From assembly GCA_018667995.1 (NCBI GenBank), contig JABIQT010001025.1, positions 1 to 6,108 of the forward strand: 6,108 bases of DNA. Direction: 5' to 3'. This document shows, in pieces, positions 1 through 6,108 of the stretch (the stretch's first letter is position 1; the number at the start of each line of letters is the position of its first letter). The notes under the pieces are model-generated. The model was not told the DNA's origin. It was given only the letters and a program-made list of their open reading frames with translations, and did not search any database. A program made the translations under genes and the position numbers. Origin of the DNA: Candidatus Latescibacterota bacterium (GTDB taxonomy: Bacteria > JAAXHH01 > JABIQT01).

Positions 1-400
1 CAGCGATTGCCGCGCCGCCAGCCACCACGGCGCCAAACAGCGTCCAGAACCACTTGCGATCACGAGATACCGCGCCGCGTCTCAGGTCGACCAGAAGCCT
101 CCGGTCATCCCGCAGGTCAACCTGGTTCAGCCATGGAATATGGCCCTCGAGGAAGACTCTGATCTGATAGTTACCTGCTGCTAACCTGCCCGAATAGGGG
201 GTCGTACCCATCAATCGACTATCGACGTACACGGCGGCCCCCGAAGGCTCGGACAGCAGAATGAGGTGCCGCATGGGTGGTTGGGCAGCTGCTTCTCCCA
301 CGAACATATCTACAGAGAATTCCGAGATAAGGAGACTGGAAATCAGCACGACTGTCACAAGGCGTGCCGCCACAGCTGCACTCGAAGCGTTGTTTCGCAT
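1..400 (-). CDS. PEGA-domain membrane protein, C-terminus cut by window edge
   Basis: An ATG at 398-400 opens a frame of 133 codons that is still open at the left edge. Residues 1-40 look like a signal peptide or signal anchor: Arg2 and Arg13, a hydrophobic stretch at 14-24, and a possible cleavage after AAA39. Residues 45-96 match a PEGA domain: LILLSEPSGAAVYVDSRLMG, TTPYSG, then LAAGNYQIRVFLEGHIPW. A basic stretch (99-116) precedes a hydrophobic segment (117-133, WFWTLFGAVVAGGAAIA), a C-terminal membrane helix often seen after PEGA domains. PEGA domains are small beta-rich modules on envelope proteins; the precise role is unknown. The start is supported by a GAGGT ribosome site 10 bases upstream, which overlaps the stop of the large surface-protein gene. 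Only 8 bases separate the two genes, so co-expression is very likely. Confidence 0.87.
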   Translation of the reverse strand, partial: MRNNASSAAVAARLVTVVLISSLLISEFSVDMFVGEAAAQPPMRHLILLSEPSGAAVYVDSRLMGTTPYSGRLAAGNYQIRVFLEGHIPWLNQVDLRDDRRLLVDLRRGAVSRDRKWFWTLFGAVVAGGAAIA

Positions 401-408
401 ATAGATAG

Positions 409-3400
409 TTACCTCAACAACAGCATTTTGCGTGTAAGGAGAGCAGCCTCCGTACGCAATTGGTAAATGTACAAACCGCTCGTCACCGTGCGTCCGCTAT
501 CGTTCACCCCCTGCCAGCTAACGGTGTGCCGTCCAGGTGCACGCACCTCATCGAGCAGGCGACGCACTTCCTGACCCAATATATTGTAGATCGTCAGCGT
601 GACCGGGGCTGTCGCGGGGAGATCGAAAGAGATGAGTGTAGTCGGATTAAAAGGATTCGGGACATTCTGGCTCAGGCTGACAATTGCTGGCTGCGTTGCT
701 CTGTTTATGGCTTCCGAGACAAAGGATGATGGTCCTGCCACCAAGAGGAAATGCCGAACCAGCCTTCCCTTTGTTGGAACGTACAGGTACTCCGAAGTCG
801 TCCTGATATTCCGATGTTCGTGCTGATCAAGATCTATGAGATGCATCTCAGTTTCGAAAGGTATTTTCTCCAGATTGGAAATTGAAATCCTCACACCATC
901 TGACAGGCTACCAGACGTAACCGTAAAGTACCATTTGCTGCCCGAACTGGTGGCAGACTTGAAGTCTGTGGAATAACGGCCCGGACGACTACTCGACTGG
1001 TCCTGGACTATGGCGAGGGAGAGCGCTCCGTCACCCATCGTTGGTGGTTCTGATATGTCAAAAGTGTCGTATCCATCTTGTGCTCCGGGTGAAACGCCTA
1101 CATAATTCGCGTCATCCATGAGCGCACCTGACTCCGCCGCGATCTGGAGGCTCCATCCCGCGTCACTAGGTAGGGCCGCTGCCACATGCTTGGGCGTCGC
1201 GATTACACTGGCATCGACAATCGGCATAACCAAAGGGACGCTGCCGGATGCAAGGTTCTGCACCCAGTAGCCGTGCCATGGCTTCAGCTCGGTGGCCTGA
1301 ACGTAGCTACTTCCAGTCCATTCCCATACTATTGGTTCTATGGAACCGCCTGGATTACTGGCAATTAGATCTGCAACAGGAATAGGGAACAGATAGGGCG
1401 TGCCTACCTGATTCCAACCAGGAGTGAGCACAATAGAACGAATCTTATCAGCCGACGAGAATGCATCATCGAGTTGGATCTGTTGGGGGTCACGTGCTAT
1501 TACCCAGAAGGCCTTCGCTGGTGTCATCTGACCCGCATTTGGATGTTCTTTGTACTGAGCTCCGTTCCAGCGAAAGAGCCTCCAGGAGCGAGTGTTGTAC
1601 TCTCCGGACGCACCGAGACTCTGTCCGAGTACATCGGGCGGATCGGAATTTGTCAGCAATGCGGGAATTGAAATCATACGAAAATCATCAGCGGCAAGGT
1701 CCGTACCGGATGGCAGATTTAGCCCCAAGCTGAAGAGCGTGTTCAACTGGATGAATAGGCGCTGCTCGACTGATATGGCTGTGTTTCCCGACGGATCCCG
1801 TGCTCCAATCACATATTCCACGCCCTGCGGGCTCACACGGGCGCCCGAGATCGTGGCTCGATAGATATTCGATCCCGTTTCGCGAACCATTGCAAGACTA
1901 TCTGACCACACGGGAAAGCCCGCGGTTCGGAAGAGCATCCAGACATAGCGAACCCCTATAGCATCTGACACCTCGGCGGAAATGCTAACCGGTTGTCCCT
2001 CAATCGCCGAGATCTGGGTGCCTGCAGAAATAACGGGTGGCACAATATCATCGGGAATATCGCTTTCCGATATCGTGATATGCTGGTTGGTCGCGACCAA
2101 GGTGAGGACCTGTCGCTGTCCTGAGGGCCATTCCACAATCAAGGAGTCGATGGTAACGGCGCTTCCAAACCCAAACTCTACAGGCAACGAAGGTTGGGAT
2201 AGATAGCCGGACCCACCGTCCACATCCGAGCGTTGTCTATGGTTTCCTGACACTGCAACAACCTGGGCGCCAATGCCGCTCTTATTGCTCAATGCACCCT
2301 CGAGGGTCGCGGACAGCCATCGGTTTCCATTTCCCTCATTTCTATAGAGACGATTCGGCTCGTTGTCATTGACCACGTAGAGATCAAGCCAACCGTCTTT
2401 ATCCATGTCCCCCCATGTCCCCCCTGTCCCGTTTCCCCCATCATCAACTCCCGCATTCACGGCGGACCTGATGAAGCCACCAGCTCCGTCATTCCGGTAC
2501 AACTGATTGGCTCCGTCGTTGATGACACTAAGGTCAAGGTGACCATCATTATCATAGTCAACCCAGGCCACGCCCTGACCATCGCCGGTGTCATTAACGT
2601 TGCTGACCGTCGCTATTTCGCTGAACTTTCCGTCACCGTCATTCCGGTAAAGACGATTCGGGGCCTCGCCGATGGCCAGTGTTTCATCGCTGTTCGCCAG
2701 GAATAGATCAAGATCGCCATCACTGTCGTAGTCACCCCAGGACACACCGCGGCCATTGCCGTTGTCATTTACCCTCGCGAAACCTCCGACCTCAGCAAAG
2801 GTACCGTCCTGATTGTTGCGATAGAGCCTGTTCGGGGCCTCGCTAAATCCAAAGCCGCTCCTTCCGTTCGATAGATAAAGATCAAGAAACCCATCTCCGT
2901 TATAGTCCCCCCAAGCCGCTCCTTGACCTGCTTGATTGTCGTTGACCCCAGCACTTCCGGCGATCTCAGCAAAGGTGCCGTCACCGTTGTTGTTATATAG
3001 CCGATTGGGGCCGTCGTTCACCAGGTACAAATCCAGGTGGCCGTCACGATCATAATCACCCCAGGCAACAGAGCGTCCCTCATCGCTGTCAGCCACCCCC
3101 GCGGCGACCGCAAGTTCTGTAAAACCAGTGCCATTGTTGTTACGATAGAGCAGGTTTCTCTGACCACTACGTGCCAGATAGAGATCAAGATCACCGTCAT
3201 TGTCATAGTCGCCCCAAGCTGCGCCGAATCCGCTACCGCCATCAGCTAAGCCTGCGGCGACCGCAAGATCTGTGCCCGGGGAGATCCCATCACTCCGATA
3301 CAGACGGTTGCGCTGGCCACTATTTACGAGATAAAGATCCTGATCACCGTCATTGTCATAGTCGCCCCAGGCCGCGCCCCTTCCGGGCCCGCCATCACCA

Positions 3401-4524
3401 ACTCCAGCACTGCTACCGACTTCGGTAAACGATAGCGTTGATGACGTGGTCGTCGCCTCCGTGATAGTAATTCGTTGGTTCGCCTCAATCTGCGTCAGAT
3501 TCTGCACAGTACCCGAGGGCCAGTAGATAATCACCGAGTCAACCAGACTGGAACTACCGAGGCCAAACTCCACTGGAAGAGACCCCTGGGTAAACAATCC
3601 TGAGCCCCCGTCAACCGTCCGAACCTGCTGGCGCAAGCCCGTTACTGCCACTACTCGGGCACCTATAGCGGAGCGATTGCTCGGGCTGCCTATCAATTTT
3701 AAATGTAGCCAACCATTACTATTGCTTTCATTTCGATAGAGCCTGTCTGCGCCAGAAATTACCGGGGCGTAAAGATCCAGATCGCCATCGTTATCATAGT
3801 CGCCGAAACCGAGTCCGAACCACTTCCCAAGGCCATTGATTCCTGCCAGTGCGCGTAATTCCGTAAAGGTCGAATTACCATTATTCCGATACAACATATC
3901 CTGGCCGGTCTGATCCACAACGTAGAGATCCAGCCATCCGTCGTTATCCACGTCAGACCACGCCGCATCACCAGAGTACTGTGGTACCGCACCGCCGAAG
4001 GGATTGGTGATTATGGTGAAGCTCGTATTTCCGTTGTTTCGGTACAACCTACCAGCTCCCATATCGCACAGATAAATATCGAGATCCTGGTCGTTGTCAA
4101 AGTCACCCAGAGCCACACCATGAATCTTACTGTTTCCGCCCAACCCTACTGGGGAAGTAATGTTCGTAAAGGTACCGTCGCCATTGTTGTTATATAGCTT
4201 CATTGAGGTGTCGCTATCGGTCAGGAAGAGGTCCGCGTCGCCATCTTGATCAAAGTCCTCCCACACGGCAGCCTGTCCCTGACCACCATCGGAGACACCA
4301 GCCTGAGGTGCTACATCCGTGAACGATCCGTCACCGTTATTCCTATAAAGTCTATTGTCATCGTTGAACGCGTTGGCTACATAGATATCTAGATTACCGT
4401 CATTATTGTAGTCACCCCAGCCAATACCGCGACTCAGTCGAGAATCGTCGACCCCGGCAGCCGCACCGACTTCACTAAAAGTGCCGTTGCCGTCATTTCT
4501 ATATAGATGATTGCTCTCGCCCAC
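409..4524 (-). CDS. Main part of the double-propeller surface protein: 12 FG-GAP repeats, two ASPIC/UnbV domains, T9SS-type C-terminal domain
   Basis: This is a 1371-residue frame counted from a GTG at 4524. That GTG is an internal Val in repeat sequence with no Shine-Dalgarno upstream, so it is probably not a genuine start; the frame is open back to 4575. Domains: repeats 3-7 of propeller 1 (1-265); ASPIC/UnbV 1 (286-352, IGARVVAVTG ... VDGGSG ... PVEFGLG ... WPSG); propeller 2 with seven repeats (364-730); ASPIC/UnbV 2 (750-818, same signatures); Ig-like module (about 828-925, with DPSGN); two related modules (about 945-1090, RLFRWNG...FWV and IVWEWTG...YWV); a beta-rich region with DGYDTFD...PP (about 1120-1268); and a sorting/FlgD-Ig-like domain (1281-1371). 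It ends TAA inside the ribosome site of the next gene. No enzyme motif is seen. Binding, adhesion or matrix roles are inferred from the family only. Confidence 0.9.
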   Translation of the reverse strand: MGESNHLYRNDGNGTFSEVGAAAGVDDSRLSRGIGWGDYNNDGNLDIYVANAFNDDNRLYRNNGDGSFTDVAPQAGVSDGGQGQAAVWEDFDQDGDADLFLTDSDTSMKLYNNNGDGTFTNITSPVGLGGNSKIHGVALGDFDNDQDLDIYLCDMGAGRLYRNNGNTSFTIITNPFGGAVPQYSGDAAWSDVDNDGWLDLYVVDQTGQDMLYRNNGNSTFTELRALAGINGLGKWFGLGFGDYDNDGDLDLYAPVISGADRLYRNESNSNGWLHLKLIGSPSNRSAIGARVVAVTGLRQQVRTVDGGSGLFTQGSLPVEFGLGSSSLVDSVIIYWPSGTVQNLTQIEANQRITITEATTTSSTLSFTEVGSSAGVGDGGPGRGAAWGDYDNDGDQDLYLVNSGQRNRLYRSDGISPGTDLAVAAGLADGGSGFGAAWGDYDNDGDLDLYLARSGQRNLLYRNNNGTGFTELAVAAGVADSDEGRSVAWGDYDRDGHLDLYLVNDGPNRLYNNNGDGTFAEIAGSAGVNDNQAGQGAAWGDYNGDGFLDLYLSNGRSGFGFSEAPNRLYRNNQDGTFAEVGGFARVNDNGNGRGVSWGDYDSDGDLDLFLANSDETLAIGEAPNRLYRNDGDGKFSEIATVSNVNDTGDGQGVAWVDYDNDGHLDLSVINDGANQLYRNDGAGGFIRSAVNAGVDDGGNGTGGTWGDMDKDGWLDLYVVNDNEPNRLYRNEGNGNRWLSATLEGALSNKSGIGAQVVAVSGNHRQRSDVDGGSGYLSQPSLPVEFGFGSAVTIDSLIVEWPSGQRQVLTLVATNQHITISESDIPDDIVPPVISAGTQISAIEGQPVSISAEVSDAIGVRYVWMLFRTAGFPVWSDSLAMVRETGSNIYRATISGARVSPQGVEYVIGARDPSGNTAISVEQRLFIQLNTLFSLGLNLPSGTDLAADDFRMISIPALLTNSDPPDVLGQSLGASGEYNTRSWRLFRWNGAQYKEHPNAGQMTPAKAFWVIARDPQQIQLDDAFSSADKIRSIVLTPGWNQVGTPYLFPIPVADLIASNPGGSIEPIVWEWTGSSYVQATELKPWHGYWVQNLASGSVPLVMPIVDASVIATPKHVAAALPSDAGWSLQIAAESGALMDDANYVGVSPGAQDGYDTFDISEPPTMGDGALSLAIVQDQSSSRPGRYSTDFKSATSSGSKWYFTVTSGSLSDGVRISISNLEKIPFETEMHLIDLDQHEHRNIRTTSEYLYVPTKGRLVRHFLLVAGPSSFVSEAINRATQPAIVSLSQNVPNPFNPTTLISFDLPATAPVTLTIYNILGQEVRRLLDEVRAPGRHTVSWQGVNDSGRTVTSGLYIYQLRTEAALLTRKMLLLR
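411..415 (-). promoter_or_regulatory. Ribosome binding site of the PEGA gene, embedded in the end of the preceding gene
   Basis: GAGGT on the minus strand lies 10 bases before the ATG at 400 and is made from the last two sense codons and the first base of the TAA stop of the large gene. This fixes the PEGA start and suggests translational coupling. Confidence 0.65.
412..684 (-). other. C-terminal FlgD-Ig-like / type IX secretion sorting domain (coding region)
   Basis: Residues 1281-1371 read SLSQNVPNPFNPTTLISFDLP, then VTLTIYNILGQEV, GRHTVSWQGVNDSGRTVTSGLYIYQL, ending RKMLLLR. This is the usual C-terminal sorting domain of type IX secretion cargo in FCB bacteria, where it directs outer-membrane export and is often cleaved. 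It implies that the cell has a type IX or similar system; none of its genes lie in this window. Confidence 0.85.
2071..2277 (-). other. ASPIC/UnbV domain 2 (coding region)
   Basis: Residues 750-818 of the long frame repeat the same order of motifs as domain 1: IGAQVVAVSG, VDGGSG, LPVEFGFG, LIVEWPSG and NQHITISE. The whole unit of propeller plus ASPIC/UnbV is therefore present twice in tandem in one protein. Confidence 0.88.
3189..3216 (-). repeat. 28-bp exact DNA repeat, copy 1 (partner at 3342-3369)
   Basis: The plus-strand 28 bases here are identical to those at 3342-3369, at a distance of 153 bp (51 codons, one propeller repeat). They encode the core WGDYDNDGD and flanking bases. Identity at synonymous positions suggests recent duplication or gene conversion between neighbouring repeats. 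Confidence 0.85.
3342..3369 (-). repeat. 28-bp exact DNA repeat, copy 2 (partner at 3189-3216)
   Basis: Same 28 bases as the copy at 3189-3216, one repeat unit away. Both lie in the first two repeats of propeller 2. Confidence 0.85.
3469..3669 (-). other. ASPIC/UnbV domain 1 (coding region)
   Basis: Residues 286-352 of the long frame carry the ASPIC/UnbV signature, IGARVVAVTG, VDGGSG, LPVEFGLG, VIIYWPSG and NQRITITE. This domain classically follows a run of FG-GAP/VCBS repeats in CRTAC1-like proteins, which is its position here. Confidence 0.88.
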
Positions 4525-4821
4525 TAAACTCGCACTCGCGTAAATATCCAGGTCGCCGTCGTTGTCGTAATCCCCTCAGATGGCGTGGTACCAGTTGGAA
4601 AGGGCAGTAAGGCCAGCGGCATTCGAAACATCTTCGAAGGTTCCATTCTTAAGATTGCGGTACAGTGTTAATGGTTGCTTTTCTGGCGGCTGAGCCAACG
4701 TAATACCGGAGACAAGAATATCCTCATACCCATCACCATCATAGTCGCCCCATGCCACACCCGTATTGGAGACGGTACTGTTTACCCCAGCCTCTTTAGA
4801 TACATCCGAGAATGTGAATTG
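3730..4821 (-). repeat. Propeller 1: seven FG-GAP/VCBS (CRTAC1-like) protein repeats of about 50-58 residues
   Basis: Repeat cores, in reading order, are WGDYDGDGYED, (stop)GDYDNDGDLD, WGDYNNDGNLD, WEDFDQDGDAD, LGDFDNDQDLD, WSDVDNDGWLD and FGDYDNDGDLD, each followed by a hydrophobic strand and then usually LYRN(N/D)(G/D)xxxF. Spacing between cores is 58, 53, 52, 51, 50 and 51 residues. The DxDxDG loop resembles integrin-type calcium-binding loops. This block is diverged: one core lacks the loop Gly (DNDQ), and two have lost the Trp to Leu or Phe. Seven repeats match a seven-bladed propeller (family knowledge; the fold is inferred). Confidence 0.85.
4576..4578 (-). other. In-frame TGA replacing the conserved Trp of repeat 2
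   Basis: On the coding strand the codons read ...His-Ala-Ile-TGA-Gly-Asp-Tyr-Asp-Asn-Asp-Gly. Most other repeats in the protein have Trp directly before Gly-Asp-Tyr/Phe/Met-Asp, and that Trp is always TGG. One transition (G to A on the coding strand, C to T on the plus strand at 4576) explains it. On the plus strand the base lies just after a run of four C's and would have made six C's in a row, a context where a base call could also go wrong. Confidence 0.9.
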
Positions 4822-4896
4822 GGCTAGTGCGTCTTGAGGGGCACGGCAAAGCATCAAGCAAGCACTGCATAGAAGGAGTCTTAGATACAACATCAT
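4576..4896 (-). CDS. N-terminal fragment of the double-propeller surface protein (signal peptide plus first repeat)
   Basis: This 106-residue frame begins with a clear Sec signal peptide: Arg6, a Leu/Cys-rich core at 7-17, and a likely cleavage after ALA25, just before QFTFSDV. The lipobox pattern is not satisfied at Cys10 or Cys17, so a lipoprotein is unlikely. The mature part has the FG-GAP/CRTAC pattern 'FSDVSKEAGV ... GVAWGDYDGDGYEDI ... LYRNLKNGTFEDVSNAAGL', that is one full repeat and the start of a second, and stops right after NWYHAI, where the repeat demands a Trp. Two adjacent ATG codons (4896 and 4893) could start it; the second sits 7 bases from a weak GAAAG ribosome site and the first only 4, so 4893 may be the real start. 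Alone it could not form a propeller, so it is best read as the front end of the gene continuing at 4575. Confidence 0.8.
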   Translation of the reverse strand: MMLYLRLLLCSACLMLCRAPQDALAQFTFSDVSKEAGVNSTVSNTGVAWGDYDGDGYEDILVSGITLAQPPEKQPLTLYRNLKNGTFEDVSNAAGLTALSNWYHAI

Positions 4897-4900
4897 CGAT

Positions 4901-4905
4901 CTTTC
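4901..4905 (-). promoter_or_regulatory. Weak ribosome binding site of the surface-protein gene
   Basis: GAAAG lies in the 21-base gap after the caspase gene, 4 bases from the first ATG (4896) and 7 from the second (4893). Spacing favours the second ATG. The match to the Shine-Dalgarno consensus is poor. Confidence 0.4.
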
Positions 4906-4917
4906 AAGCTGAGGATT

Positions 4918-6108
4918 TTAGTAACGAACCAGCACTCGCCGCAGGTCCGCACCGTGCAGTTCTGGAGTTTGCTCACGATCAAGTCGGCCAGCCTGCGTCA
5001 TGACTTGTTTCTTGACGTATTCATGCAATTCCTGAACGGTGACAACCCTATCATTGTTGGCATCGGACTCTCCCCGCAGGCCCCGCATCAGGAAATAGGT
5101 GAACAGTCCATGTGATTTTTCAGGATAACTTGAGCTTACCTGATTTCCAGCGGAAGCCGTCAACACGACGATGCGATCGTCGATCTCAATTCTCCGTGGG
5201 CTGATTCCGATTCCGCGGGCCCCCTCAAGAAGCATCTCGACCCTATTGCCGCGCCCCACCCGTCCACTGAAGCAGGCGTCAAGCATGACGGTCATTTGGC
5301 GGGCAGGTAACTGTTCGAGACTACGGTAGAGTTCATCAAGTCTATAGCTGGTTGCGGGGTAATTCGGATCGCTGTCGGCTGGCATAAGGTAGGAATCTCC
5401 TGTCCTCATGTCCGGAGTTCCGTGACCGACGTAATACACAAAGATCTCTGTCTTACCGGGAGTCACACGTTTGGCCAGCCAGCCTTGAATCGGGTCGAAC
5501 ACCTTGTGGAACTCGCCCTGGGTCGCGTCACCATCCGTACGAAAGTAGATGTTCTGTTCCTCAATTCCGAGCCGATTTGCGAAATAGGTACGCATGCTCG
5601 CGGCGTCCTGTCTGGCAAATGTCACGTCTGGTGCATACCGATAATCTTCAATTCCAAGAACGACTCCAAGGGCGTCCGGCCGTTTCACCATAGTGGTGGG
5701 GGGCTCCCCATATTCCATTTCGACCGGACCGACCGGCAGAGAATCAATAGCCGATTCGTCGGACGCCGCCACCTGCGAGGCCATATTGACACGTCTCCGC
5801 TTTAGGATCCCATGATCCATACCGGCAACAAGCCACTGACCGTCGGTACTGAACGCCAGGCTCCAGACAGGATAGTCCTCACGGGCTGTCGCCACCAGTT
5901 GGCCACTTTCGACGTCCCACAGTCGGACCGTTGTATCCCAGCTGCCCGAAGCAATCGTTTCACCATCAGGCGAGAAGGTAACCGCCGAAACCAGTCCAGT
6001 ATGCGCGTTCAATGAGGTAGTAGCTGTTCGTGTCGTCAGATCCCAAATTCGGATCGCATCGTCCCGCCCGCTGCCACTGACCATCCAGCGCGCGTCCTTC
6101 GACACAGC
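4918..6108 (-). CDS. WD40-repeat caspase-like (peptidase C14) protein, N-terminus cut by window edge
   Basis: The frame stays open to the right edge, so the true start lies outside; the GTG at 6103-6105 is an internal valine in a WD40 blade, not a start (numbering below counts it as 1). Residues 1-105 hold the last WD40 blades: one ending IRIWD (18-22), a full one with FSPDGETIASGSWDTTVRLWD (44-64), and a degenerate one (80-105). A linker of about 35 residues leads to the caspase domain: the first strand and GIEDY (145-155), catalytic His228 in YYVGHG, and catalytic Cys278 in MLDACFSG. The small-subunit region follows (311-345, with LTASAGNQ and HGLFTYFLMRGL). Both dyad residues are present, so activity is predicted. 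Asp276 of the DxC motif suggests a basic P1 preference as in metacaspases (inference). An EF-hand-like loop lies at 348-359. WD40 blades probably act as a protein-binding scaffold. Export and substrate cannot be judged. It ends TAA, 21 bases before the next gene. Confidence 0.93.
   Translation of the reverse strand, partial: AVSKDARWMVSGSGRDDAIRIWDLTTRTATTSLNAHTGLVSAVTFSPDGETIASGSWDTTVRLWDVESGQLVATAREDYPVWSLAFSTDGQWLVAGMDHGILKRRRVNMASQVAASDESAIDSLPVGPVEMEYGEPPTTMVKRPDALGVVLGIEDYRYAPDVTFARQDAASMRTYFANRLGIEEQNIYFRTDGDATQGEFHKVFDPIQGWLAKRVTPGKTEIFVYYVGHGTPDMRTGDSYLMPADSDPNYPATSYRLDELYRSLEQLPARQMTVMLDACFSGRVGRGNRVEMLLEGARGIGISPRRIEIDDRIVVLTASAGNQVSSSYPEKSHGLFTYFLMRGLRGESDANNDRVVTVQELHEYVKKQVMTQAGRLDREQTPELHGADLRRVLVRY

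Follow-up and report, generated by a model that had tools for sequence, protein, structure and literature searches.

The locus in the centre of a small bacterial contig reads as one long gene that is broken by a single in-frame TGA, which raises the question whether one gene or two are present and whether the stop is a mutation, an error of the consensus or a codon read as an amino acid. The window is the whole of this contig (C283, 6,108 nucleotides) and belongs to a fragmented MAG of 6.06 Mb in 1,165 contigs, with 85% completeness and 4.2% contamination. It has three genes, all on the minus strand: a gene for a WD40/caspase-like protein, the propeller gene with the TGA, and a gene for a PEGA-domain protein (Table 1). 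Only 22 bases separate the end of the WD40/Peptidase_C14 gene from the ATG of the propeller gene; these two are therefore probably in the same operon, and the PEGA-domain gene probably belongs to it too.

Table 1 Features of the window in the order of transcription, followed by loci elsewhere in the same genome
Feature	Position	Strand	Description
WD40/caspase-like gene (upstream neighbour)	4918..6108	(-)	WD40 repeats and caspase-like Peptidase_C14; intact up to the contig end
Interrupted gene	409..4896	(-)	1,496 codons; encodes a secreted CRTAC1/VCBS-UnbV_ASPIC protein with two propellers and a C-terminal tail of T9SS type
Upstream ORF	4576..4896	(-)	106 aa; blade 1 and start of blade 2; FG-GAP_3 (E 1.3e-9); expected truncated product
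Propeller 1 and first UnbV_ASPIC	3457..4818	(-)	seven repeats; UnbV_ASPIC at about 3466-3669
In-frame TGA	4576-4578 (+ strand)	(-)	codon 107; Trp slot in repeat 2 of propeller 1
C run adjoining the TGA	4572-4575 (+ strand)		followed by T, C
Codons from TGA to next possible start	4525..4575	(-)	17 codons; conserved repeat sequence GDYDNDGDLDIYASASL, also GDYDNDGDLDIY...
Downstream ORF	409..4524	(-)	GTG start; 1,371 aa; begins within blade 2
Propeller 2 and second UnbV_ASPIC	2062..3453 (approximate limits)	(-)	seven repeats
T9SS type A sorting-like / FlgD_ig-like domain	424..660	(-)	C-terminal; TIGR04183; FlgD_ig PF13860
PEGA-domain gene (downstream neighbour)	2..400	(-)	truncated by the contig edge
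SelA equivalog	L120 (G000:C455) 1474-2667		TIGR00474, 487 bits; 397 aa
Two tandem VCBS/UnbV_ASPIC paralogs	L032 (G000:C174) 926-3322 and 3355-5772		TGAs at 2726 and 5113

The frame of the propeller gene has exactly two stops, the TGA at codon 107 and the terminal TAA, and no frameshift or further lesion was found along its length; translation across the TGA yields 1,495 residues. The first-pass annotation of this DNA had described a large gene that is open on both sides of the TGA and otherwise free of decay, and this description was correct at every point checked. The protein is built from FG-GAP_3 repeats (12 stretches, E 9.8e-100) and two UnbV_ASPIC domains (PF07593, E 4.4e-37) and ends in a TIGR04183 match of 31.3 bits (cut-off 23); the N-terminus of the upstream ORF is hydrophobic and, judged by eye, resembles a signal peptide. 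The read-through protein has 14 DxDxDG repeats, and their aromatic slots are residues 49, 107, 160, 212, 263, 313 and 364 in propeller 1 and residues 510, 561, 612, 662, 720, 778 and 828 in propeller 2. Reading codon 107 as Trp thus gives seven repeats in propeller 1, equal to the seven of propeller 2, as had been claimed. Eleven of the 13 other slots are Trp, all encoded by TGG, and the remaining two are Leu and Phe. The 17 codons that follow the TGA encode canonical repeat sequence (GDYDNDGDLDIYASASL), again as originally described.

Homologous proteins agree with this assignment. A homologous locus was defined as an alignment that begins in repeat 1 and covers the codon 107 site; in 142 such loci, the column has W in 102, F in 21 and another residue or a gap in 19, and a stop in none. 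The collections searched contained no close ortholog of the gene, the best matches having about 40-50% identity over segments. A structure model of residues 27-480, built from 24 aligned sequences with W in place of the TGA, folds propeller 1 and its ASPIC domain with a pLDDT of 90.3 and a pTM of 0.90 into a closed propeller, and the modelled Trp (residue 81 of the fragment) lies in a core strand of blade 2. On this model, the codon 107 position is a buried structural aromatic. By fold, the model is most like murine CRTAC1 (9etn), with a TM of 0.89 to the query and an E of 3.4e-30; 9etn is also found by profile (E 6.8e-47). The protein shares FG-GAP_3 repeats, UnbV_ASPIC domains and the seven-bladed fold with CRTAC1-like FG-GAP/VCBS and UnbV_ASPIC proteins, but differs from these in its tandem arrangement of two propeller-ASPIC units, the long C-terminal part, the T9SS-like tail and the internal TGA.

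On balance, we consider it slightly more likely than not that a large exported CRTAC1-like protein is encoded here by one gene with a single recent nonsense allele. The frame is open on either side of its only internal stop, which takes the place of a conserved residue. Translation would start at 4896 and normally stop at codon 107, giving a short exported fragment of one and a half propeller blades that would be unable to close the ring. The remainder would not be made efficiently, as no later start would also provide an export signal, and by default the exported protein would be lost through termination at codon 107; full-length protein may still be made at a low level when Trp-tRNA misreads the UGA and puts the usual residue back. 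The interrupted protein is probably dispensable. That the stop hit a Trp codon is unremarkable and no sign of design, since 66 (14%) of the 458 stop-generating substitutions, among the 13,455 single substitutions possible in the frame, affect Trp codons. With its single stop, its intact sides and the lack of a second lesion, the gene resembles the recent pseudogenes and nonsense polymorphisms described for bacterial in-frame nonsense genes (PMC7918605, PMC11017572) and has no feature that distinguishes it from these.

A realistic but less probable reading is that the organism's gene is intact and that the TGA is a consensus or assembly error, or the base of a minority strain that has entered the consensus. 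The stop is a one-base difference in an otherwise undamaged gene and, as the first-pass annotation had pointed out, it stands beside a short homopolymer, the C run. The fragmentation of the assembly suggests modest coverage; low coverage creates spurious internal stops, a fragmented MAG (here 1,165 contigs, 85% complete) is an assembly type prone to them, and of the pseudogenes with internal stops, about 8% are not the same in genomes that are otherwise almost identical (PMC11017572). The background rate of such lesions was therefore estimated from homology, which replaced codon-usage scans for interrupted genes as the in-frame and out-of-frame scores of these overlapped too far. For this, 1,265 reference ORF proteins, drawn from 800 kb of a genome of the same order (G002) and from the homologous loci, were aligned to 85 contigs (469 kb) of the MAG, yielding 40,794 homology-supported sense codons in 111 genes. 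These codons contained no frameshift, and in-frame stops were limited to the TGA of the window and two TGAs on contig C174, which are conserved (see below). Many of the tblastn alignments contained stops, but these marked the real ends of genes or lay in shadow frames on the antisense strand. The clean sample speaks against a generally error-ridden assembly and against a miscall; the assembly is not visibly error-ridden, but a sample of this size cannot push the miscall rate below what a single stop requires. Given this small sample and the spurious stops that arise at low coverage (PMC11017572), we rate the real allele as somewhat the more probable, and the miscall as a substantial possibility. 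The TGA is in either case ordinary in kind, a nonsense allele or a miscall and not recoding. Taken alone, the gene is of little significance; it illustrates clearly how a point stop can interrupt a large exported protein, and its TGA is a reminder that internal stops in MAGs need read support.

Two further options had been named initially, a switchable allele and readthrough of the stop. No second copy of the propeller gene was found in the assembled genome, which leaves the switchable allele without positive evidence. Readthrough has to be divided into a passive and a productive form. Of the stops, UGA is the one that E. coli reads through most readily, mainly with insertion of Trp, and termination is less accurate when the next base is a G (PMC11126739); weak, passive leakage by Trp-tRNA is plausible for the UGA-G context of the window too. 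Because this context occurs at a Trp site, and because reports of purifying selection on in-frame stops are widespread for bacteria (PMC7918605), the leaky UGA could be used productively, with a near-cognate Trp-tRNA providing full-length protein at low or condition-dependent levels. We regard this as unlikely: none of the 142 homologous loci has a stop at the site, a single genome offers no conservation of the stop, and no conserved structure follows the UGA. Still more doubtful is the specific idea of a real and maintained allele in which leaky insertion of Trp would keep a giant secreted protein with two propellers at a low level that varies with growth. The 42 nucleotides after the UGA fold worse than 200 of 200 shuffles (z +2.2), and no SECIS-like or otherwise stable hairpin was found just after it (z +2.1 and +2.2). 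Programmed recoding is disfavoured by this missing hairpin, by the absence of the stop from homologs and by the quite different appearance of the UGAs on C174. Of the four options initially listed, the nonsense allele and the consensus error thus survive.

That the locus is a pair of distinct genes, with GTG 4524 as the start of the second, is highly improbable. This GTG is in frame, 17 codons past the stop, and is the only start within 100 codons after the TGA; but it lies inside a propeller blade, the 17 codons that would be skipped encode conserved repeat sequence, and the homologous loci encode a continuous protein across the site. A purine-rich ribosome site was not found at the GTG, no promoter-like or terminator-like site was found between 4400 and 5000, and no signal peptide was seen on the downstream ORF. 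A promoter or ribosome site near 4524 is what the first-pass annotation had expected if there were two genes; both were looked for and neither was found. With the apparent signal peptide on the upstream piece and a T9SS-type tail on the downstream piece, neither would be sensible alone as an exported protein. Judged by its sequence, the downstream ORF is not believable as a separate gene; the lack of a plausible start or signal peptide after the TGA supports the one-gene view, to which repeat count, homologs and fold model also point.

Nothing beyond the window site speaks for a reading of UGA as Trp throughout the genome, and such a change of code is very unlikely: among 264 long ORFs sampled, 107 end in TGA, and no other TGA occupies a Trp slot in the 40,794 supported codons. 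The anticodon TCA occurs in none of the 29 tRNA matches of the MAG, among which a normal tRNA-Trp was likewise not recovered. TGA is an ordinary stop in this genome. Arguments based on the tRNAs of this genome are weak, because only 29 matches, none of them to tRNA-Trp, were recovered from a MAG that is 85% complete.

Insertion of selenocysteine at the window UGA is equally remote. The genome has a SelA equivalog, whose match starts at model position 71 and so lacks the N-terminal part, and 13 of 16 genomes of the same phylum have a strong tRNA-Sec match. No SelB gene stands beside SelA on its contig (C455), tRNA-Sec and SelB were below the cut-off in the 85% complete MAG, and SelB-wing_3 had no match; candidate tRNA-Sec matches in the genome turned out to be tRNA-Ser/Leu. 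Like a bacterial selenoprotein gene, the propeller gene has a UGA that is in frame and flanked by coding sequence, in a genome with SelA, but it lacks the SECIS hairpin, a Sec/Cys partner and conservation of the UGA: homologs have W or F at what is a buried structural aromatic site, Cys occurs in 1 of 142 loci and a stop in none.

The two TGAs on contig C174 stand in contrast to that of the window. They split two tandem paralogs at the same aligned site, and a GGUA-loop hairpin stands at the same distance after each UGA (nucleotides 24-27 from the UGA); the stem sequences differ between the two (z -2.4 and -2.3). In five further genomes (L309, L311, L313, L314 and L315), a TGA falls in this alignment column and is followed by 179-365 open codons, which brings the column to 7 sequences from 6 genomes. 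L314 and L315 have a clear hairpin after the UGA (z -2.1 and -2.3), and in L309, L311 and L313 it is weak or does not stand out; all five partner genomes have a tRNA-Sec match (72.9-77.5 bits). It is probable from these sequence features that the C174-type CRTAC1-like VCBS/UnbV_ASPIC proteins are a selenoprotein family in which UGA is read as selenocysteine. One genome and one protein superfamily would thus provide both sides of the contrast: conserved recoding at the C174 UGAs, with a shared column, hairpins and tRNA-Sec in the partner genomes, and none of this at the UGA of the window. NCBIfam has no family for proteins of the C174 type, and FG-GAP, VCBS and ASPIC were not mentioned in those parts of the selenoprotein literature that our searches covered, in which not every term was matched against every paper. 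If the assignment is true, it places selenocysteine in a CRTAC1-like propeller protein. The closest homologs that lack the UGA (C1054, G011) have Glu and not Cys in the UGA column, and because no Cys is seen in such homologs, searches for Cys/Sec pairs would miss this family.
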